Source: a virus. Taken from it: a stretch of 47,803 nt of DNA. The stretch lies in IMG/VR virus record IMGVR_UViG_3300025086_000049, positions 1 through 47,803 of that record. One strand, 5' to 3'. Under the pieces are notes generated by a model, which saw nothing but the letters and a program-made list of their open reading frames with translations, searched no databases and was not told the DNA's origin. Shown here piece after piece: positions 5,318 through 24,897 of this stretch (positions are counted from its first letter, which is position 1; each line of letters begins with the position of its first letter). A program made the position numbers and the translations under genes.

Positions 5318-7038
5318 TATTCCCAGGGCATTTTCTCACCTTCAGCCATACCAGGCAGAACATGAGGCATAAAACGACCAGACTTTGGTTCCCATTTGAA
5401 ATGAGCTTCAGCTCCGTTTTCACCTAAGTTTTGAAACTTAACTTTAAGTATCTTTGCTTTAACAGTTTTAGCATCATAGTCTCTATGTACTAGTATACCA
5501 TGGTAACTAGCATCATACCATTCGCCGCCACCTTTAATGTTATACATAGTTGGCTCTTCAATTTTACCATTACTATCTTTATACATTTTAGTTGGGTGCG
5601 CTACAATAAACGTAAGCACATCGTACTTCTTACAAAACATTTCGATCTTAGTTAGATACTCCATTGTGTATCTGTTTACATCTTCTGTTTTGCAATCAAC
5701 ATCTCTGATCTTATTAAACGGATCAATGACTAAGCATTTAATACCTTTACGTTTAACTAGCTCAGCACCTTTACGTAGCACTGATTCAAGGCTGTACTTG
5801 TCCATATCAATGAAAAAATAATTATCATTAACATGCTCTGCAACTTGATTCCATTTACCACTACCAATGTCTGAACGTGTAGGCATATCGCCCCACGTCT
5901 TACGCATTAGTTTATGGGCATGTAAATAAGTTGGCGCATTTTCTGGACTAGCAAACGCTGTCTTCCAACCATAGTTCGCGTTATATCCAACGACCATTTG
6001 ATCGACAAAGTCACTCTTACCGGAACTAGGAATACCAGTAACAGTAATAAACTGACCAGTGTAAGTTGAAAAGATATCATCAAAATTCTGAAGGCCGATT
6101 TGGTAACCGGGCTTGAAACCATTTTTAACGAAGTCAGTAACTTCATCTTCAATGTCTTTGAAAGTTGTGACGTTTTCAAGGGGTACTGGTCTGGCTTTGG
6201 TAATACGCTCTGCCAGTTTTTCTTTTCCATATTTTAATAAATATTCATTAGCATCTTTACAGTCTTCAAAGGTTACTAAGAAACATACTTCAGCACCGAG
6301 CCTACGTATAAGTTCTTGCTGTAGCATTTGACCAGCATCATCTTGATCAACTGCAAGTATTACTTTTTCTTTATCTTCAAAGTAATCAATACAATTATCT
6401 AGGTAATCTAGGTTATTGTTTCCAAGTGTTGCTCCGTTAGGAACTGATATAGTATTTTTAACACCAGCCTCGTGTAAAGCTAACACGTCCATCTCACCTT
6501 CGGTAATTATACACGTGTCATAGCCTACAATACTATTGATATTGTAAAATACTTTTTCAGCACCTTTGTATAACTTAAAGTTTTTACGACCGTCTCTGTA
6601 TTTAACATTAATAAGTTGATCGCCCATAAAGTAGTTAAACTTTATAGTATTCTCGGTCTTACCGGTTTGCGGCATATACTCAGGACCCTCACTGATTTTT
6701 AAGTCAATGAGAGTCTGAGCTGATACACCTCTTGTTTTAAACCATTCAGCTACTTTGGTTTGTGGTATGTTCCACTCATCAGCCGAAGGCGATGTTGGTC
6801 TTACATACTCTTTTTCACTAGCACCTTTACGTTGGTACGTGTGCAACTGAAATGATGTACTACAATTGTGACAAGTACCGAGACCCCGTTCCCAATCATA
6901 CGAAGCACATTGTGCTTTTTGATTTTTAGGTTGCCTGTTGTGTGAGCACAAAGGGCATATACCCTGTGTCTTACCTTCTTTTAGGCCATATTGATTGAAC
7001 TCATCAATCAAGAATCCATTGATCTCTATTGTCTGCAT
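5317..7038 (-). CDS. Bifunctional DNA primase/helicase, T7 gp4-type
   Basis: 573 aa with the full T7-type order. Zinc-binding domain: C28 and C31 (CPLC), C44, then C56/C59 (CHNC). TOPRIM primase core: ITEGEMD around E180/E182 and AVDQDDAG around D231-D234. RecA-like helicase: Walker A GIPSSGKS at about 335-342, Walker B CLVIDP near 435-440, then FIVAHPTK and IKGGGEWYDAS, which match DnaB-family motifs 3 and 4. It primes the lagging strand and unwinds the fork. It is the central replication enzyme in this window; the polymerase must be elsewhere. The SSB gene is 4 nt upstream and a small coupled gene follows. Confidence 0.95.
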   Translation of the reverse strand: MQTIEINGFLIDEFNQYGLKEGKTQGICPLCSHNRQPKNQKAQCASYDWERGLGTCHNCSTSFQLHTYQRKGASEKEYVRPTSPSADEWNIPQTKVAEWFKTRGVSAQTLIDLKISEGPEYMPQTGKTENTIKFNYFMGDQLINVKYRDGRKNFKLYKGAEKVFYNINSIVGYDTCIITEGEMDVLALHEAGVKNTISVPNGATLGNNNLDYLDNCIDYFEDKEKVILAVDQDDAGQMLQQELIRRLGAEVCFLVTFEDCKDANEYLLKYGKEKLAERITKARPVPLENVTTFKDIEDEVTDFVKNGFKPGYQIGLQNFDDIFSTYTGQFITVTGIPSSGKSDFVDQMVVGYNANYGWKTAFASPENAPTYLHAHKLMRKTWGDMPTRSDIGSGKWNQVAEHVNDNYFFIDMDKYSLESVLRKGAELVKRKGIKCLVIDPFNKIRDVDCKTEDVNRYTMEYLTKIEMFCKKYDVLTFIVAHPTKMYKDSNGKIEEPTMYNIKGGGEWYDASYHGILVHRDYDAKTVKAKILKVKFQNLGENGAEAHFKWEPKSGRFMPHVLPGMAEGEKMPWE

Positions 7039-12239: not shown

Positions 12240-12756
12240 TAATACTATTTTTTAGTATATCTATTATTTTATTTGCGTTAGAAAGAGATAAATTAACTTT
12301 ATTTGACTCATTATTTTCATTCCATCTAGTTTCATTGTTAGCAAAATCAGTGTAATCCATCTTTTCCATGTATCTTGATATTACTTTTTCAGGTGTTAAC
12401 ACAAATACATTTCTGCTAGTGTGTTGGTCCCAACAGCTAATCCATCTATCTTTTTTACCTGACCATATAATATATGTATAATGGTGATCAATAGACCTTG
12501 GTAGTTGATATAAGTAGCAACTGTCATAGTACATATCGTGCACTAATTTAGCAGCTAATCTGCTACCATCAGTGCCTGGGTTAGCGTGTAGCCAGTTTGC
12601 TAATTGCACGCCTTGCCACTCTGGATAACCGTCGTGATGTAAGTACATATTCACATAACTTTCGTGAGCATATACATCTGGGTTGTTTGCAAAACCAAGA
12701 CCATATTTTTCAGCATGTTCTCGATCAACAACCATTGTTAAATTTCTAGTTGCCAT
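12232..12756 (-). CDS. Conserved phage protein of unknown function (174 aa)
   Basis: Starts MATRNLTMVVDREHAEKYGL; contains YVNMYLHHDGYPEWQGVQLA and HHYTYIIWSGKKDRWISCWD. I recall a family with a Y-V-N-M-Y...DGYP...LA-x-x-L pattern in marine and T4-like phages. The His/Trp/Tyr-rich character suggests a globular enzyme or binding protein. Function unknown. The end overlaps the next gene by 8 nt and the start overlaps the previous one by 11 nt. Confidence 0.75.
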   Translation of the reverse strand: MATRNLTMVVDREHAEKYGLGFANNPDVYAHESYVNMYLHHDGYPEWQGVQLANWLHANPGTDGSRLAAKLVHDMYYDSCYLYQLPRSIDHHYTYIIWSGKKDRWISCWDQHTSRNVFVLTPEKVISRYMEKMDYTDFANNETRWNENNESNKVNLSLSNANKIIDILKNSIND

Positions 12757-12943
12757 ATTCTTCTAGTATTTGTTCAATATCATTTTCGTAATCTACGATA
12801 ACTTTACCTAGCTCTAAAAAATACTGTAAAGCTTTTACCTCGTAGTCGCTAAGATTGCTTATTTCACGATCTTCAATCGCATTTAAGCAGTCTTGCATGT
12901 CGTTTACCGTGTTTTCAAACCGGCAATAACTCATGTTAGGCAT
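12746..12943 (-). CDS. Conserved small phage protein (65 aa)
   Basis: Begins MPNMSYCRFENTVNDMQDCL; the rest is an acidic helical region with SDYEVKALQYFLELGKVIV. The MSYCRFENT beginning is one I associate with a widespread small phage protein of unknown role, often beside the family encoded just downstream here. An AT-rich leader of 17 nt separates it from the T-arm RNA element. Confidence 0.75.
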   Translation of the reverse strand: MPNMSYCRFENTVNDMQDCLNAIEDREISNLSDYEVKALQYFLELGKVIVDYENDIEQILEEYGN

Positions 12944-12960
12944 AATAATTAATTTAAAAT

Positions 12961-13004
12961 TAGTGGACGTACAAGAATCGAACTTGTATTAACCGTTACG
13001 TCCT
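12961..13004 (-). ncRNA. tRNA-like T-arm minihelix, element A (44 nt)
   Basis: On the minus strand, 5' AGGACGT pairs with 3' ACGTCC (six bp) and encloses a 10-nt linker AACGGTTAAT and a canonical T-arm: stem ACAAG/CTTGT with loop TTCGATT. It ends ACTA. This is the acceptor plus T half of a tRNA; the linker has the GG of a D-loop but there is no D-stem and no anticodon arm. No 5' half that could pair with it is seen upstream. It sits in the 91-nt gap between two genes of the operon. A second copy with the same architecture but different stem bases is at 16369-16412. Function unknown; a processing site or tRNA mimic is possible. Confidence 0.6.
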
Positions 13005-13034
13005 GTGTTGCTAGTCTAGCAAAGTCATGTATTA

Positions 13035-13484
13035 TTATTCTTCCCACTCATATCCGTCATCAATTAGCTTTTCAATTAGTTCTTGTTTTTTATCATTGTA
13101 GTACTCTTCGTACACGTTTTGCACAACATCTTCAAACTCATAGTTATCATCGTTAAGTTCTTGAAAGTAAATAGTCAAACCATCTGTCATAGCGTCAGCC
13201 ATTTTTTCAAGCCAATCACTTTCATAGTAGTATATATCTTCATTGATTGATGGTCGTTGATCATCGTCTGTTGCCACCCACACTTCATAACCATCAGATG
13301 TTGTCTCTGTGTAAAACATCATGTCAGGATTTTTAGCCCAACCATCTGTTATTTCAAAGTCAAAATGGTTTTTAGTACGTTCAAGCATAATAGCAAAGCT
13401 AGTATCTTCAGCACCAGTTACATTATCTTCTGCTAGTAGTTGTTGCAAAAGCTCTTCGTCTAGTTTTAATTTATTATCTGTCAT
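13035..13484 (-). CDS. Hypothetical highly acidic protein (149 aa)
   Basis: Asp/Glu content is very high, with runs such as DEELLQQLLAEDNV, WVATDDDQRPSINEDIYYYE and LIDDGYEWEE. It also has aromatic patches. Not recognised. Small acidic phage proteins sometimes mimic DNA to block host enzymes; that is only a possibility here. It overlaps the previous gene by 11 nt and is followed by the gap holding RNA element A. Confidence 0.65.
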   Translation of the reverse strand: MTDNKLKLDEELLQQLLAEDNVTGAEDTSFAIMLERTKNHFDFEITDGWAKNPDMMFYTETTSDGYEVWVATDDDQRPSINEDIYYYESDWLEKMADAMTDGLTIYFQELNDDNYEFEDVVQNVYEEYYNDKKQELIEKLIDDGYEWEE

Positions 13485-13824
13485 TGTTATTCCATTTAAA
13501 ATAGTTTTTTAGTATGTACTTTAGAATATAGTTTAATCTAGATTCTTCATTGTATATCATAATGCGTTTTTTATTTTTACCTTCGTAAAACTTACCGTCC
13601 CATCCAACTGCTTTATAGTCAACGTCATACGTCTTGTTTATCTGGTACATTGAGTGGCAGTTTCTATCAATACGAACATAACCTCTTTTGTAAGAATAAA
13701 ATCTCACTGGTTTTCTACGTACTTTAAACGGAGCTTCAAAAGCTCTTGTGCCATTAACCTTCTGCCGCGAAGTCGTAATCTCGTTGATACCCAAGTATTT
13801 CATCAACGTAAGTGTGTTTTCCAT
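13474..13824 (-). CDS. Hypothetical basic protein (116 aa)
   Basis: Begins MENTLTLMKYLGINEITTSR and has Arg/Lys/Tyr-rich strands: FKVRRKPVRFYSYKRGYVRI and YKAVGWDGKFYEGKNKKRIM. Strongly basic, so nucleic-acid binding is plausible. M8 (13803) is an alternative start. It overlaps the preceding gene by 71 nt from the first ATG and 50 nt from the second. Unrecognised. Confidence 0.6.
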   Translation of the reverse strand: MENTLTLMKYLGINEITTSRQKVNGTRAFEAPFKVRRKPVRFYSYKRGYVRIDRNCHSMYQINKTYDVDYKAVGWDGKFYEGKNKKRIMIYNEESRLNYILKYILKNYFKWNNNDR

Positions 13825-14038
13825 AATCTTTTTCTATTAAAGTTGCTATATAATTCCATGCATCGAACTCTCTTAGTTGAGAATCTAATGTAGCTTGTAG
13901 TTGCTCTTCGTCAAATATACTTGACACCTTGCCTTCTAGTTGAAGTCTAGTTTGAGCCATTTCGATAGATAACTGATGCATATTTGCAAAAGCTTTATCG
14001 TGCGCTTGTAATTTAGTTGTATCAGTCATTGTCTTCAA
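13754..14038 (-). CDS. Hypothetical helical protein (94 aa)
   Basis: MKTMTDTTKLQAHDKAFANM followed by helices HQLSIEMAQTRLQLEGKV and EEQLQATLDSQLREFDAW. The true start may be M4 at 14029, since the first ATG lies inside the preceding gene. No family recognised. Member of the dense cluster of small early genes. Confidence 0.6.
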   Translation of the reverse strand: MKTMTDTTKLQAHDKAFANMHQLSIEMAQTRLQLEGKVSSIFDEEQLQATLDSQLREFDAWNYIATLIEKDYGKHTYVDEILGYQRDYDFAAEG

Positions 14039-14267
14039 ATAAATGCTCGCACCACATTAGATCATAGCTGTTAAGGTTGTGTAAACTTGTATCAGAAAAC
14101 GAATGCAATGAGCGTACATCGCCAATTGTTAAGTCGCTGATAAACTTAGTTTTGTCTAGTTTAGCAAATAAACTGCGTACTGCTGCAGAGTATTTACGGT
14201 CATTAGACTCAAGCTTTGCTTTGATGTCTGGTTTAAGCCGTTGTTTAAGTGTTTTAATTTTATTCAT
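14022..14267 (-). CDS. Hypothetical 81-aa protein
   Basis: Begins MNKIKTLKQRLKPDIKAKLE; basic N-terminus and the segment SDLTIGDVRSLHSFSDTSLH in the middle. Unrecognised. It is the first gene after promoter-like motif P1; the ATG is 8 nt from the TGGATAATAT box, so its transcript could be nearly leaderless. Its 3' end overlaps the next gene by 17 nt. Confidence 0.65.
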   Translation of the reverse strand: MNKIKTLKQRLKPDIKAKLESNDRKYSAAVRSLFAKLDKTKFISDLTIGDVRSLHSFSDTSLHNLNSYDLMWCEHLFEDND

Positions 14268-14275
14268 AATTGTAT

Positions 14276-14309
14276 ATATTATCCATTAGATAATGAATTT
14301 TGTTTGTAA
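14276..14309 (-). promoter_or_regulatory. Repeated promoter-like motif, copy P1
   Basis: Minus-strand TTACAAACAAAA, 12 nt, TGGATAATAT, 8 nt before the start of the 81-aa gene. It begins 2 nt after the 3' end of RNA element B. Same 34-nt layout as five other copies at 14785, 15460, 16069, 16749 and 16945. The second box resembles a -10; the first box is not a classical -35. Confidence 0.7.
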
Positions 14310-14311
14310 TA

Positions 14312-14408
14312 CAGTGGACGTGGCAGGGCTCGAACCTGCGTATAGTCAAACATTGTTTTCAACAAGTTGATTTTTGCTTGTGACTATCAAAATCCTGATT
14401 TCACGCCC
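14312..14408 (-). ncRNA. tRNA/tmRNA-like structured RNA, element B (97 nt)
   Basis: 5' GGGCGTG pairs with 3' CACGTCC (seven bp, one G-U). The T-arm is GCAGG-TTCGAGC-CCTGC. Between them, ATAGTC pairs with GACTAT just before the T-arm, where tmRNA has helix 2, and the preceding GGATTTTGAT resembles the tmRNA D-loop block GGATTTGAC. The internal loop is only 34 nt, with a small hairpin ACAAG/CTTGT and a TTGAAAA string like a Phe anticodon loop. It cannot be folded as a normal tRNA and has no tag reading frame. It ends ACTG. It could be a tRNA with a disrupted anticodon arm, a minimal tmRNA relative, or a tRNA mimic. Confidence 0.55.
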
Positions 14409-14451
14409 ATAAGGCAGCAGTTACGGACTGGTAGTTAACTAGTATTGTCAT
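14401..14451 (-). CDS. Possible micro-ORF, 16 aa
   Basis: MTILVNYQSVTAALWA. Its start overlaps the stop of the preceding open frame in an ATGA junction, and its own stop lies inside the 5' acceptor strand of RNA element B. Too short to judge by composition. The ATGA overlap is the only support, and the region may be purely structural RNA. Confidence 0.25.
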   Translation of the reverse strand: MTILVNYQSVTAALWA

Positions 14452-14570
14452 TTATCCGCTCTTTCTGTTTTGTACGCATCGAGCCGAATCAAGTTCGCCT
14501 TTAATTGTACTAACGTGACCAGTATGCCGCCGCCTTGCGCTTCACAACCCTACCAACTCAGGTAGTTCAT
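14448..14570 (-). pseudogene. GC-rich open frame interrupted by one TAG, or structured RNA leader
   Basis: Starting 4 nt after the upstream stop, an ATG opens a 41-codon frame: MNYLSW, TAG, then GCEAQGGGILVTLVQ and onwards to KTERADK before TGA. The stretch is richer in G+C than the neighbouring genes and contains CTACC/GGTAG and TTGTG/CGCAA hairpins. It may be a gene broken by an amber mutation, a readthrough product, or not coding at all but the 5' part of the RNA that includes element B. TAG is a normal stop elsewhere in the window (for example groEL, terminase), so general recoding is unlikely. Confidence 0.35.
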
Positions 14571-14574
14571 CGCG

Positions 14575-14763
14575 CTATTTACGTCGCCAAGCTCTGTGCA
14601 CACTCGCTGATACTTCTTGGCTGACGATTTGAATAGTATTGCCTGTCTTGTGCTCGATGATAGGTACATAGCTATAAGTTTGAGTGGTTGAACACTCGAC
14701 ACAAGTTTTGTAACCTAAGTCTATTCGCACTGGGTGCACAGATTTACCGCATCTACAATACAT
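14575..14763 (-). CDS. Small zinc-ribbon-like protein (62 aa)
   Basis: Begins MYCRCGKSVHPVRIDLGYKT and continues CVECSTTQTYS. C3-x-C5 and C21-x2-C24, with H10 nearby, can form a zinc ribbon. The C-terminal part EHKTGNTIQIVSQEVSA is typical of a small phage family I recall from marine genomes, without known function. The gene follows promoter motif P2 by 21 nt. Confidence 0.75.
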   Translation of the reverse strand: MYCRCGKSVHPVRIDLGYKTCVECSTTQTYSYVPIIEHKTGNTIQIVSQEVSASVHRAWRRK

Positions 14764-14784
14764 ATTTGTTTGTTTTTGTTTATT

Positions 14785-14818
14785 ATATTATCCAGTAGCT
14801 ATTGTGTTTTGTTTGTAA
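14785..14818 (-). promoter_or_regulatory. Repeated promoter-like motif, copy P2
   Basis: TTACAAACAAAA, 12 nt, TGGATAATAT followed by AATAAA, on the minus strand, 21 nt before the zinc-ribbon gene. The upstream box overlaps the last codons of the previous gene. Confidence 0.72.
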
Positions 14819-15005
14819 ACCACCTGTTGTATAGTATTTCAACAGTTTTAGCTGCTATAGCTTCTTGTGCTCGCAGGTAATCATCACCTTCAAGCTCATC
14901 AAAGCTAGTTCCGTCCATAGCCCACTCTGTATTAGAGATAATGCTATCGTCGATAGAATCAGCGATCCACGTCGCCATATCCTCTAGTTCTTTCATTTTA
15001 CTCAT
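14799..15005 (-). CDS. Hypothetical acidic 68-aa protein
   Basis: MSKMKELEDMATWIADSIDD and on to LEGDDYLRAQEAIAAKTVEI. Helical and acidic. Unrecognised. It starts in an ATGA overlap with the preceding gene, and its 3' end overlaps promoter motif P2. Confidence 0.6.
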   Translation of the reverse strand: MSKMKELEDMATWIADSIDDSIISNTEWAMDGTSFDELEGDDYLRAQEAIAAKTVEILYNRWFTNKTQ

Positions 15006-15253
15006 GATTTTGCTATTTGTTTTAGTTGTTCGACTGTATATTTACTACCTGTTTCGCGCCACATCTTGTGATGGGTGAACTTCCTAGCTTTTGGAAAACT
15101 AGATTTTTGACTGTGTTTTACTGAAAACCACTCTTTGTCAGTTAGTCCACCACATTCACCGTGATGCGCGAACTTGCGTCTATGCTCCGCAGCTCGAATT
15201 TGCTTTTGCTCTTCAACATAGTTGAGCAGATCTCTCATATTTTTAACTACCAT
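15002..15253 (-). CDS. Hypothetical basic 83-aa protein
   Basis: MVVKNMRDLLNYVEEQKQIR, then HRRKFAHHGECGGLTDKEWF and a basic stretch SFPKARKFTHHK. His- and Lys-rich. Not recognised. M6 (15238) is an alternative start. It overlaps the preceding gene by 7 nt and the next by 4 nt. Confidence 0.6.
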   Translation of the reverse strand: MVVKNMRDLLNYVEEQKQIRAAEHRRKFAHHGECGGLTDKEWFSVKHSQKSSFPKARKFTHHKMWRETGSKYTVEQLKQIAKS

Positions 15254-15444
15254 GGCAGTTCGGTTTTTTCAATGTAAGTTAAACCTTTGTAGTTAAACCA
15301 GTGTGATTTACCTTCTTGTCCGGCTGCATTAGTGATAAAGCCAAATGATGGAGGTAGATCGCCGATATTATAGCCTTTATACTCAGTATCGCCAAGTTTA
15401 GCTAGATGAGTATCGTATTTTTTGTAGAATTTAATTGATTGCAT
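15247..15444 (-). CDS. Hypothetical 65-aa protein
   Basis: MQSIKFYKKYDTHLAKLGDT, then GYNIGDLPPSFGFITNAAG and SHWFNYKGLTYIEK: an aromatic, beta-rich small protein. Unrecognised. First gene after promoter motif P3, with the ATG 15 nt beyond the TGGATAATAT box. Confidence 0.6.
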   Translation of the reverse strand: MQSIKFYKKYDTHLAKLGDTEYKGYNIGDLPPSFGFITNAAGQEGKSHWFNYKGLTYIEKTELPW

Positions 15445-15459
15445 AGTTTATTATTTATT

Positions 15460-15493
15460 ATATTATCCAAAAGATATTGTTATTTGTTTGTAA
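15460..15493 (-). promoter_or_regulatory. Repeated promoter-like motif, copy P3
   Basis: TTACAAACAAAT, 12 nt, TGGATAATAT then AATAAA on the minus strand. It starts 1 nt beyond the stop of the previous gene and lies 15 nt before the 65-aa gene. Confidence 0.72.
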
Positions 15494-15494
15494 T

Positions 15495-15650
15495 TTAATA
15501 CATCTCTCCTACCCATGAAGATAGTTCTGAGTTAAATCTATCGTAGTATTCACGTTCGATAGCTTCAATTTGCGCTTTAGTAATTTTAGAAATAACCTTA
15601 CGATTACGTAAACTTCTAGCTCTTTGGTATTTGTATAAGTCTTTTTTCAT
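15495..15650 (-). CDS. Hypothetical basic 51-aa protein
   Basis: MKKDLYKYQRARSLRNRKVI, then helix KITKAQIEAIEREYYDRF and the end SSWVGEMY. The ATG at 15650 follows the previous stop by one base; the longer frame from 15776 lies inside that gene and is rejected. Basic and helical; function unknown. Confidence 0.6.
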   Translation of the reverse strand: MKKDLYKYQRARSLRNRKVISKITKAQIEAIEREYYDRFNSELSSWVGEMY

Positions 15651-15651
15651 A

Positions 15652-15909
15652 TTAATCGCCTTTGTATTGACCCATAGAGTTATAAAACGATTCAGCCGCT
15701 TTATTAGAAAGTTCACGTCTAGCTTCATATTCCGCTTTGTGATCAAGAAGATCATCGATGCGCTCTTTGATACCATCTTCAGTCTCTGAAGTTAGTCTAG
15801 TGATATGATATGGAAATTCACTGAAAGCTTCGCATGAATAACCACTCGCTGATTTACCAGTGTGAGTAGTCCACTCGTTGTATTCGTAAGGTATATTTCT
15901 GTATTGCAT
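15652..15909 (-). CDS. Hypothetical 85-aa protein
   Basis: MQYRNIPYEYNEWTTHTGKS, then AFSEFPYHITRLTSETEDGI and a C-terminal charged helix RIDDLLDHKAEYEARRELS. The pattern of an aromatic beta part followed by a helix suggests a small folded domain. Not recognised. Confidence 0.6.
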   Translation of the reverse strand: MQYRNIPYEYNEWTTHTGKSASGYSCEAFSEFPYHITRLTSETEDGIKERIDDLLDHKAEYEARRELSNKAAESFYNSMGQYKGD

Positions 15910-15921
15910 AGTTATTTATTT

Positions 15922-16056
15922 TTAAAACATTCCAAAGTCAGCGTTTAAATTACCTGTTGCAAGATTGAATATAAGTCCAATAATGCCAAGTGATGCTAAG
16001 GTTATATAACCATAAACGACTAGTTTTAGAATTGTGTAGTGATTGAATTTACGCAT
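15922..16056 (-). CDS. Small single-pass membrane protein (44 aa)
   Basis: MRKFNHYTILKLVVYGYITL followed by ASLGIIGLIFNLATG and a polar end. One long hydrophobic segment from about residue 9 to 34 with a basic N-terminus predicts an inner-membrane protein, N-in. It follows promoter motif P4 by 12 nt. A role in superinfection exclusion or lysis timing is possible but only a guess. Confidence 0.6.
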   Translation of the reverse strand: MRKFNHYTILKLVVYGYITLASLGIIGLIFNLATGNLNADFGMF

Positions 16057-16058
16057 AA

Positions 16059-16199
16059 TTATTTTATATTATTATCCATTAGTTGTTGTAATTTGTTTGT
16101 AAGTTCCTCACGTCTAGTTTTAGACTGTGGAGTGATTTGAAAGTTTGCTTCAAACTCATTAATCAATTGTAACTCGTTAAAGATTTTATCTATAGTCAT
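16059..16199 (-). CDS. Hypothetical 46-aa helical protein
   Basis: MTIDKIFNELQLINEFEANF, then QITPQSKTRREELTNKLQQL. It looks like a short helical hairpin. It shares the MTI beginning and the K-I/L-x-x-L helix pattern with the 46-aa protein encoded just upstream, so the two may be diverged duplicates. Its 3' end overlaps promoter motif P4. Confidence 0.55.
   Translation of the reverse strand: MTIDKIFNELQLINEFEANFQITPQSKTRREELTNKLQQLMDNNIK
16069..16102 (-). promoter_or_regulatory. Repeated promoter-like motif, copy P4
   Basis: TTACAAACAAAT, 12 nt, TGGATAATAA on the minus strand, 12 nt before the small membrane-protein gene. It lies entirely within the 3' end of the preceding coding region, so the motif is conserved despite coding constraint. 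Confidence 0.7.
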
Positions 16200-16205
16200 A
16201 GCGAA

Positions 16206-16346
16206 TTAGTTTGAATATGATTCATCTCTTAATTTTTCTAGTTCAGTTATTTCTTTGTACACTTCTCGGTATTGAACCCATCGGTCATTGTCTTGAAGAA
16301 AATCTAGTTTGTTGTATAGTTTTTGTATTTTATTAGTAATAGTCAT
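16206..16346 (-). CDS. Hypothetical 46-aa helical protein
   Basis: MTITNKIQKLYNKLDFLQDN, then DRWVQYREVYKEITELEKLR. Mostly charged amphipathic helix. It ends 6 nt before the next gene and starts 22 nt after RNA element C, in an AT-rich leader. Unrecognised. Confidence 0.55.
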   Translation of the reverse strand: MTITNKIQKLYNKLDFLQDNDRWVQYREVYKEITELEKLRDESYSN

Positions 16347-16368
16347 AATTGTAATTTTAAAGAGTTAG

Positions 16369-16412
16369 TAGTAGTCACAGTGAGAATCGAACTCACATTA
16401 ACCATTGTGACT
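16369..16412 (-). ncRNA. tRNA-like T-arm minihelix, element C (44 nt)
   Basis: 5' AGTCACA pairs perfectly (seven bp) with 3' TGTGACT. Between them lie the linker ATGGTTAAT and a T-arm of stem GTGAG/CTCAC with loop TTCGATT; the end is ACTA. Size, linker, loop and tail match element A at 12961-13004, while both stems differ in sequence yet remain paired, which is covariation-like support for a conserved RNA. No D-stem or anticodon arm exists. Just upstream, ACTCG (minus strand) pairs with CGAGT across 21 nt (16436-16466). It lies between two small genes of the operon. Confidence 0.62.
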
Positions 16413-16483
16413 TTAATCTGTTCAACATTGTTTATACTCGTGATGTACACATTTCAACGCGCGAGTTAAAATGAAGAAGTCAA

Positions 16484-16714
16484 TTATATGACTTCAACAT
16501 TTTGTACAACTTTGGGAATTGAAGTTGATGAAGTGTAAGATTTATATTTTTCCCAGCAATTTAGTTTGGATAAATTGTCTTTCATTAGTTCATAAACTTT
16601 ATCATGATTGTATTTGAAAGTTTTTCCAGATTTGAAAGTAACTTCGATGATAGAGTTTTGACCGATTAGTGATTTGCGAATGACAAATCTTTTTGATTGA
16701 ATTGAATTTTGCAT
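16484..16714 (-). CDS. Hypothetical basic 76-aa protein, first gene of the leftward operon
   Basis: MQNSIQSKRFVIRKSLIGQN, then IIEVTFKSGKTFKYNHDKVY. The V-x-F-x-SGKTF-x-Y-x-x-V-P/Y pattern recalls the small KTSC-type domain, but no KTSC string is present. Basic, beta-rich N-terminal half. It follows promoter motif P5 with a 34-nt AT-rich leader and is therefore probably among the earliest genes expressed. Confidence 0.65.
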   Translation of the reverse strand: MQNSIQSKRFVIRKSLIGQNSIIEVTFKSGKTFKYNHDKVYELMKDNLSKLNCWEKYKSYTSSTSIPKVVQNVEVI

Positions 16715-16748: not shown

Positions 16749-16782
16749 ATATTATCCAGTTTGAGTTTAGTTTTGTTTGTAA
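16749..16782 (-). promoter_or_regulatory. Repeated promoter-like motif, copy P5
   Basis: TTACAAACAAAA, 12 nt, TGGATAATAT then AATAAA on the minus strand. It lies in the intergenic control region upstream of the 76-aa gene at 16714. Confidence 0.75.
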
Positions 16783-16944: not shown

Positions 16945-16978
16945 ATATTATCCAAATAGACTATTGTTTTGTCTGTAA
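16945..16978 (-). promoter_or_regulatory. Repeated promoter-like motif, copy P6
   Basis: TTACAGACAAAA, 12 nt, TGGATAATAT on the minus strand. One base differs from the other upstream boxes. It is the right-most copy and would start a transcript across 16930-16750 into the operon. Confidence 0.7.
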
Positions 16979-23340: not shown

Positions 23341-24897
23341 ATGACCGACAAAATTGTCAAGAACCTTAATTTTGGCCAAGAGGCCAAAGATAATGTATTT
23401 AAAGGTATAGAAAAACTCACAAAGGCTGTTAGCTCCACACTAGGGGCTAGTGGCCAGTGTGTTATACTAGAAGATGATCAAGGAAAACCTTTGATTACTA
23501 AAGACGGTGTAACTGTAGCAAACGCTATAACACTATTAAACCCAGTAGAGAATATGGGTGCGACGCTTTTAAAAGAAGCTGCTAGAAAAACTGTTCAAGA
23601 AGCTGGCGATGGAACAACAACGGCTACAGTACTAGCGCACTCTATCTTAACTGAAGCTTATAAAAATTTAGATAAAGATAATACTCGCAATATTAAAGAC
23701 GGCATAAACAAAGCTGTTGTTAATGTTGTTAAATACTTAGAAAAAAAAGCAATACCAGTTAAAGGTACTATGCTTGATGATGTTGCTACTATTAGTTGCA
23801 ACAATGATAAAGAGCTAGGTAAAATAATTGGAGAAGCGTTTAAAGCTGCTGGTGAAAACGGAGTTGTTGTTATGGAGCCAACAACCGAAGATACTACAGA
23901 GCTTGAGTTAGTTGATGGTGTTCAGTATGAAAAAGGGTTGACTAACTCACATTTTATAACAAGTAAAGATAAAAGAATAGCTGAGCTTGATAATCCATTA
24001 GTATTGCTACTAGAATCACCCATAGAATCTGTGCGTAAAATACAGTCGGTGCTAGAGTATGTGATTAAAAGTAAAAAACCTTTACTTGTGGTAGGTGATT
24101 TAGAAACTGAAGTGTTAGCGACTCTAGCAATGAATAGAGTTAAAGGTAATATAAAAGTTAATGTAGTCAATGCGCCAACATACGGTATAAACAAAAAAGA
24201 TACGCTTTCTGATCTAGCCGTATTAACTGGAGCTACTGTTGTTAACGAAGATCTTGGTGATGACTTAGACGTTATAAATCCTGATTTTTTAGGTACATGC
24301 TGGAAAAGCATTACTAATGACACAGAAACTATATTACAGGTAGATACGTCTACTGATGAAATAAAAAAATTGATTAGTTCAGTAAAAGACTTAATAGCTA
24401 AAGCTAAAGCTCCTGGTGAAGTTATACGTCTTGAAAAGCGTTTAGCTAGGCTTTCAGGTAAAGTGTCAGTTGTTAAAGTTGGCGCTAACTCTGAAATAGA
24501 ATTAAAAGAAAAATCAGATAGAGTTGAAGACGCTATCTGTGCTACTAAAGCCGCGGTAAAAGAAGGTATAGTATCTGGAGGTGGTATAGCCTTGCTTGAT
24601 GCATCTAATAAAACTAAAGCTAAAAGCGTTGGTGAAAAGATTCTTCTTGAAGCTATTAAAGCACCGTTTAAAACTATACTAAATAACGCTGGACTGGAAG
24701 AGGTTGGTACGCCCGAAGAAGGTATGGGTGTTAATGTAATTACAGGTGATATTGTAAATATGATTGATAAAGGTATTATTGATCCATTACTTGTAACTAA
24801 AAGCGCACTCAAACACGCGGCTTCAGTGGCTACCACTATATTATCTACAGATTGTGTAATCAATAATTTAAGAGTTGGCGATGAAAGCAATAGGTAG
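23341..24897 (+). CDS. groEL: Phage-encoded GroEL chaperonin
   Basis: 518 aa, full-length type I chaperonin. ATP site: ITKDGVTVA near 52-60 and GDGTTTATVLA at 89-99, with D90 the key phosphate-contacting Asp (D87 in E. coli). The equatorial return has KEGIVSGGGIALLDA and GVNVITGDIVNMIDKGIIDP, whose D of GD is near the catalytic D398 position. It ends ALKHAASVATTILSTDCVI. The GGM-repeat tail is absent, shortening the protein by about 30 residues. It should form a ring with the GroES encoded next, probably to fold capsid or fibre proteins. The GroES frame starts 17 nt inside this gene, reverse of the usual groES-groEL order. Confidence 0.97.
   Translation: MTDKIVKNLNFGQEAKDNVFKGIEKLTKAVSSTLGASGQCVILEDDQGKPLITKDGVTVANAITLLNPVENMGATLLKEAARKTVQEAGDGTTTATVLAHSILTEAYKNLDKDNTRNIKDGINKAVVNVVKYLEKKAIPVKGTMLDDVATISCNNDKELGKIIGEAFKAAGENGVVVMEPTTEDTTELELVDGVQYEKGLTNSHFITSKDKRIAELDNPLVLLLESPIESVRKIQSVLEYVIKSKKPLLVVGDLETEVLATLAMNRVKGNIKVNVVNAPTYGINKKDTLSDLAVLTGATVVNEDLGDDLDVINPDFLGTCWKSITNDTETILQVDTSTDEIKKLISSVKDLIAKAKAPGEVIRLEKRLARLSGKVSVVKVGANSEIELKEKSDRVEDAICATKAAVKEGIVSGGGIALLDASNKTKAKSVGEKILLEAIKAPFKTILNNAGLEEVGTPEEGMGVNVITGDIVNMIDKGIIDPLLVTKSALKHAASVATTILSTDCVINNLRVGDESNR

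Follow-up and report, generated by a model that had tools for sequence, protein, structure and literature searches.

Half-tRNAs and tmRNA-type domains between genes of a viral small-gene operon: candidate processing marks for host tRNA enzymes

Introduction

In mitochondria, tRNAs and the tRNA-like structures known as t-elements lie between genes, where they punctuate transcripts and define the endonucleolytic cuts in the message (PMC8003010). RNase P also has targets that are not tRNAs, i.e., the precursor of transfer-messenger RNA (tmRNA), phage C4 RNA, the T4 gene 32 mRNA, operon mRNAs and the tRNA-like structures of plant viruses, and these substrates, the phage ones included, have tRNA-like folds (PMC11143913). 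A further described system is the tRNA-like domain of tmRNA, including that of mycobacteriophage DS6A, which combines an acceptor stem, a stemless D-loop, a P2-like helix and a T-arm with G3.U70 and A73 (PMC4131195). Here we describe three tRNA-like elements, A, B and C, in a 47.8 kb stretch of marine phage DNA (IMG/VR record IMGVR_UViG_3300025086_000049, the whole of which we call the window), and we put forward the elements as candidate sites at which host tRNA enzymes cut phage RNA between genes.

Like the mitochondrial t-elements, those reported here are tRNA-like structures or tRNAs located between genes of a transcript; unlike them, they form a phage family with a fixed D-loop linker, T-loop and NCTA tail, for which we infer cleavage. 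Whereas the other non-tRNA substrates of RNase P are single cases, the half-tRNA described below recurs at intergenic sites of many phages and reaches 8 copies in 5 kb. Element B and most of its homologs at the same site share the tmRNA tRNA-like domain, but these long forms differ from tmRNA in measuring 80–100 nt, with a variable insert and neither a tag reading frame nor pseudoknots, and the short (mini) forms have neither P2 nor G3.U70. We found no description of the mini family in the open-licence literature, which with Rfam 15 was what novelty was judged against, a 2017 survey of 224 candidate RNAs lying outside the comparison.

Results

Three real elements were located within positions 12961–16412 (Table 1). 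As the initial annotation had claimed, all are intergenic and on the strand of the small-gene operon, which is the minus strand; small genes are numerous on it from ~17 kb leftward, and A, B and C lie among them. Elements A and C are half-tRNAs of 43–44 nt. Each has a 6–7 bp acceptor, a stemless D-loop AAYGGUUAAU and a T-arm of 5 bp, and its 3' tail is NCUA. The first acceptor strand is followed by AACGGTTAAT or AATGGTTAAT, then by the T-arm, the second acceptor strand and ACTA. We take their linker AATGGTTA to be a standard tRNA D-loop, and its GG can pair with the T-loop, making an elbow. The linker is just 9–10 nt long, and there is no D-stem, anticodon arm or variable loop. When compared with the tRNA family (RF00005), A and C share the acceptor (6 or 7 bp, as against 7 bp) and a T-arm with a TTCRANN loop, and lack the D-stem and anticodon arm; the RF00005 score was 22.2 bits against a cut-off of 29. 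The three elements are far beyond chance. A covariance model of the mini form, which had itself included A and C or near-identical sequences, scored C at 66.7 bits (E 1e-15) and A at 52.3 bits (E 9e-12), and the best match in the window after these reached 14.5 bits (E 0.23). ARAGORN made no tRNA calls for the elements, which excludes an ordinary tRNA, and an Rfam scan of the window brought no family to its gathering cut-off, which excludes a known Rfam family. We also rejected a peptide encoded within the element (ATG GTT AAT...), as many copies have lost the ATG (AACGG, AAAGG), and aminoacylation of the mini forms, as the acceptor identity pair is not conserved.

The family to which A and C belong was examined with the motif GGTTAAT-N4-GTTCGATTC (constant linker plus T-loop), which matched at least 119 viral DNA stretches, most matches being the mini element and the remainder mainly ordinary tRNAs with a variable loop that fits by chance. 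The motif leaves the acceptor unconstrained; at least five of its six pairs were present in 106 instances and all six in 99. In a set of 51 distinct mini sequences, selected for full acceptor pairing, all 11 pairs were kept in each (100% of cells) while the stems vary, with 260 cells changed on both sides of a pair compared with 79 after shuffling and a covariation score of 1.18 compared with 0.25; shifting the partner strand by one base lowered pairing from 100% to 38%. Among 93 rows chosen by covariance score, lower-scoring ones included, 98.7% of pairs were formed. Conservation of the linker and T-loop was partly forced by the search motif; in four elements found by synteny only (L252, L379, L380 and L372) TTCGA is kept and the linker GG mostly so. 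A second motif added 79 further stretches, mostly with the mini element, and a third added 27. The contigs are for the most part of metagenomic origin. With a stricter motif, 18 genome contigs were matched and the element was present in 13, these being metagenome-assembled genomes labelled Bacteroidales, Prevotellaceae, Bacilli and others, several of whose element-bearing contigs look phage-derived, plus one cultured Corynebacterium, where the element lies in an apparent phage head-gene block and the gene following the portal has its stop codon where the element begins. A search of the region against named phages gave no match, and the 43 nt consensus matched ordinary tRNAs, or matched weakly, among the matches listed. 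We regard it as nearly certain that this is a real tRNA-mimicking RNA family, and A and C are members of a widespread, so far unregistered phage half-tRNA family, an 11–12 bp upper arm plus elbow, in hundreds of phage sequences.

The cultured Corynebacterium, CNJ-954, offers a practical test system, its mini element (L282, ~5440–5500) lying between phage-like head genes with a terminator-like hairpin after it. As for the phage of the window, its terminase is 62% identical to that of an uncultured podovirus and at most 46% identical to those of Flavobacterium, Cellulophaga, Tenacibaculum and Maribacter phages; based on these identities its host is probably a flavobacterium.

Element B is a longer variant, a headless tmRNA that consists of the tRNA-like domain and a short, variable insert. 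It matched the Rfam tmRNA model (RF00023) at 29.6 bits (E 2e-9), under the cut-off of 47, over the tRNA-like domain; it has the acceptor, stemless D-loop, P2, T-arm, G3.U70 and A73 of that family and lacks the mRNA-like domain with tag reading frame and pseudoknots, there being a 265-position gap relative to the model in place of which B has an insert of just 62 nt. The predicted fold has an energy of -25.6 kcal/mol (z -2.3). Four homologs of B in other phages, each 80 nt, passed the tmRNA cut-off (65.0, 64.7, 57.6 and 53.1 against 47). We identified 61 distinct long forms with the common acceptor frame GGGNGTG/CACNTCC, and a helix of at least 6 bp closes the insert in 59% of them compared with 10% when arms are swapped between sequences. 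The search pattern for long forms imposed G3.U70; three acceptor classes that differ at pair 4:69 (C-G, A-U and G-C) were first met in an unselected survey of B sites, and all three keep G3.U70, while another B-site class, AACTAGG/CTAGTT, is without it. The initial annotation had described all three elements as a T-arm plus acceptor stem; both parts are indeed present, but A and C also have a complete D-loop, and B is a tmRNA-type domain with an insert.

The initial annotation had proposed looking for the same elements at the same junctions in related phages, and they do recur there. C, B and A occur in the same order in two close relatives, and at site A the element is conserved in G001 and G002 while a long form takes its place in G003 and G004. 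Two surveys, around gene X and the B gene (Table 1), located loci via the protein of the neighboring gene alone and not via the element. Of the 19 gene-X loci, 17 have a tRNA-like element after the gene, a mini form in 12 and a long form in 5. After the B gene, 76 loci gave 48 long forms, 7 long forms with a tRNA-Met, 3 called mini forms (1 spurious) and 18 with none within 420 nt, in 4 of which Rfam places an element slightly further on; ~60 of the 76 have a long element or tRNA. The refuting condition named in the initial annotation, absence from close relatives, has a mixed outcome: the elements are kept after gene X, and some relatives have none following the B gene. Exactly at site B, directly after the B gene, one terminase relative has an initiator-type tRNA-Met. 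As tRNA, long and mini forms occupy equivalent sites, they are alternatives there, and a true tRNA, the long form and the mini form interchange at one site.

A same-strand gene lies downstream of 58 of the 60 elements that do not overlap a called gene. Among 138 distinct mini elements, 64% have an open reading frame of at least 25 codons whose ATG begins 5–45 nt past the tail; at random positions this share is 23%, at shifted ones 29% and on the opposite strand 9%. In the window, the ATG of the gene downstream of A is ~18 nt from the 3' end of the element, and that of the gene at 16206–16346 is ~20 nt from the 3' end of C. An unrelated phage contig, L055, has 8 mini elements with differing stems at 8 gene junctions in 5 kb. 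A GAGGAGG ribosome-binding site lies downstream of each element, and a TTGACAC...GTGTCAA hairpin stands directly 3' of most of them. Both L055 and L115 have the order mini element, TTGACAC...GTGTCAA or another palindrome, GAGGAGG; the palindrome may be an operator or a 5' stabilizer.

A promoter-like motif, ACARAC-N-GGATAATAT (in fuller form TTACARACAAA-N-TGGATAATATA), occurs five times, against 0.005 expected, on the minus strand and in this region only, at positions 16976, 16780, 15491, 14816 and 14307. These copies divide the region, so that C and A fall inside separate units and B lies at the end of one, which contradicts the single polycistronic transcript of the initial annotation. The tails of mini elements follow N-C-T/A-A, with C74 in 91%, C75 in 6.5% and CCA in 3 of 138, and the true tRNA genes of similar phage contigs end NCTAA, NCTAT or NCAA, likewise without CCA. 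In four contigs whose own tRNAs encode CCA (L035, L012, L029 and L116) the motif matches were mostly ordinary tRNAs. This shared tail grammar is as expected if RNase Z and the CCA-adding enzyme handle both mini elements and tRNAs.

Beside element B, between it and the B gene, is an RNA island (14411–14575, minus strand). Together with the B-site loci L385, L394, L402, L408 and L432 it comprises at least three scaffold RNAs, i.e., the tRNA-like domain, S9 and S11, and different scaffold types have 74 13-mers in common compared with 0.03 in shuffles. By this measure the inserts of the island scaffolds appear to be interchangeable modules. Rfam found nothing in the island besides tRNA and tmRNA.

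Table 1. Features of the window around elements A, B and C
Feature	Position	Strand	Description
Gene downstream of A	12746-12943	-	65 aa, PHROG 8760, function unknown
Element A, mini (half-tRNA)	12961-13003	-	acceptor 6 bp, D-loop linker AACGGTTAAT, T-arm, tail ACTA; GGACGT-AACGGTTAAT-ACAAG-TTCGATT-CTTGT-ACGTCC-ACTA
Phage promoter-like motif	14276-14307	-	begins ~5 nt after element B, immediately 3'
Element B, long form, tmRNA-type tRNA-like domain	14312-14408	-	acceptor GGGCGTG/CACGTCC, G3.U70, A73, P2-like helix ATAGTCA/TGACTAT, T-arm, tail ACTG; GGGCGTG-(62 nt)-GCAGG-TTCGAGC-CCTGC-CACGTCC-ACTG
Second structured RNA, scaffold S9	14411-14536	-	GGCGGCGGCATACTGGTCA...GCGGATAAA...CTACCAGTCCG...GCTGCC, carries insert module m3; between B gene and element B
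B gene	14575-14763	-	62 aa, CxC/CxxC zinc-ribbon-like, ends SVHRAWRRK; upstream of B-site RNA island
Element C, mini (half-tRNA)	16369-16412	-	acceptor 7 bp, D-loop linker ATGGTTAAT, T-arm, tail ACTA; AGTCACA-ATGGTTAAT-GTGAG-TTCGATT-CTCAC-TGTGACT-ACTA
Stem-loop region 5' of element C	16419-16476	-	ACTCG...CGAGT, then GTTGAACAGATTA; by inspection, without statistical test
Gene X	16484-16714	-	76 aa, no PHROG; immediate upstream neighbor of element C, in a conserved position
Phage promoter-like motif	16749-16780	-	upstream of gene X and element C

By inspection, the region 5' of site C forms a pseudoknot in many relatives (loop ACTTGTT with GAACAAGT) and this feature is optional: a pseudoknot-like loop of this kind stands just 5' of the site-C acceptor in L013, L018, L037, L041, L068 and L081, and the L052/L064/L085 group is without it, its site-C element coming directly after the stop codon. 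Near site A, the window retains at 13011–13033 (minus strand) a remnant, ATGACTTTGCTAGACTAG, of a gene end (...YMTLLD stop); G001, G002 and G003 have this gene whole, upstream of site A. Elsewhere, at 23341–24897 (plus strand), the phage encodes a GroEL-like chaperonin, and the relative MW202828 is annotated with GroEL and a 10 kd chaperonin.

Discussion

Based on the fact that the parts conserved in these elements are those that tRNA enzymes contact, and on the RNase P and mitochondrial precedents, we favor, with moderate confidence, the explanation that the elements are sites for host RNase P and RNase Z at which phage RNA would be cut between genes. The contacts of RNase P, RNase Z and the CCA-adding enzyme fall on the elbow and on the stack of T-stem and acceptor (PMC4810234, PMC4919913), and the elements keep the elbow, this stack and the tail while the decoding parts are gone. 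In the mechanism we propose, the elements would fold with a D-loop/T-loop elbow and be treated by host enzymes as pre-tRNAs; RNase P would cut at the 5' side of the acceptor, RNase Z would cut (or 3' trimming would proceed) past the discriminator base, and the two cuts would sever the phage RNA between genes, leaving a short, defined 5' leader on the downstream message and a defined 3' end on the upstream one. Recognition by tRNA-maturation enzymes we hold to be likely; for message punctuation as the main role, the case is evenly balanced. The initial annotation had already suggested substrates for host tRNA enzymes, and that part stands in that these are tRNA mimics under strong selection for structure, sit at gene junctions and end in the manner of phage tRNAs, which is what substrates of RNase P and RNase Z would be expected to show; it missed that mini forms, long forms and true tRNAs replace one another at one site.

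Several observations weigh against cleavage by these enzymes. About a dozen relatives have no element following the B gene, and most terminase relatives are without mini elements, though many of these are fragments or lack gene X; no convincing match was found in the cultured relatives elemo, phi13:2, phi19:3, phi38:1, Calle_2 and Gundel_1, nor in MW202828. A protective hairpin on the 3' side was seen only in the L055 lineage and is no general feature of the elements (5.6% compared with 5.0% shuffled). A G at +1, which bacterial RNase P usually prefers, is not favored, occurring in 31 of 138 mini elements. A missing CCA can also weaken processing by RNase P, e.g., of T4 tRNA-Ser (PMC11143913), and together the non-G-rich +1 and the absent CCA may render RNase P slower or dependent on prior 3' maturation.

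The long forms invite a serious second reading, for which phage DS6A is the single precedent and which we nonetheless judge unlikely: as a headless domain charged with alanine, element B might bind SmpB and EF-Tu and so block trans-translation during infection. The tmRNA of DS6A is a tRNA-like domain only, and such molecules strongly inhibit tmRNA, perhaps via SmpB titration (PMC4131195); the tmRNA scores of the site-B homologs agree with this, as does the alanine determinant, G3.U70 with A73, kept in B, the G3.U70 pair persisting across the acceptor classes that differ at 4:69. However, A and C have neither G3.U70 nor P2 at comparable junctions, mini and long forms swap at site A, the AACTAGG/CTAGTT class is without G3.U70, and a single copy anywhere would suffice. 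About equally improbable is that the long forms are stabilizing scaffolds, in which matured, nuclease-resistant ends would protect a small RNA cargo swapped in and out of the variable loop, as in engineered tRNA scaffolds. One acceptor/T-arm frame with 61 distinct inserts and their closing helix would suit such a role, and so would the modules common to the tRNA-like domains and the two other island scaffolds; but the mini forms are free of cargo and left unexplained, no module has a known function, and recombination alone could account for the sharing. A modular system combining this idea with the favored one, in which half-tRNAs mark cuts by host tRNA enzymes and the tmRNA-like long forms and at least two other scaffolds present swappable small RNA modules released by the same enzymes, is a tentative proposal only slightly less doubtful.

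Less probable again is that the elements act uncut as leaders, the half-tRNA near a start codon recruiting or repelling the ribosome, EF-Tu or a phage protein and in this way controlling translation. The proximity of an ATG to most mini elements and the optional structure, a stem-loop or pseudoknot, on the immediate 5' flank of site C would fit, whereas the variable stems, the true tRNAs and long inserts at the same sites and a tail that follows the tRNA rule point to general tRNA enzymes rather than to a specific regulator. The initial annotation had also offered decoys for host defenses that target tRNAs. Mimicry of tRNA is itself in keeping with that idea, but it is weakened to the point of being very improbable because the elements have no anticodon arm and so could not stand in for the targets of anticodon nucleases; their placement at gene junctions would also go unexplained. 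Finally, it is scarcely credible that these are decayed tRNA genes, attachment-site remnants or chance hairpins. Despite their likeness to tRNA fragments and the tRNA-Met at site B of one relative, decay would lose pairing, and it is already contradicted by the full pairing, the hundreds of compensatory changes and the added constant D-loop linker; chance hairpins are excluded by the covariance score and the covariation.

If processing by host tRNA enzymes is the correct explanation, message punctuation of the mitochondrial type would be used by phages via a minimal tRNA mimic, in a family that is spread over many environments in phage contigs and also occurs in contigs classed as Bacteroidota and Bacillota and in a phage-like gene block of a cultured Corynebacterium. 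The elements would then constitute a natural set of minimal substrates for RNase P, RNase Z and the CCA-adding enzyme, and the mRNA ends of many uncharacterized phages would become predictable. In addition, the long forms open to direct test whether phages widely interfere with trans-translation.

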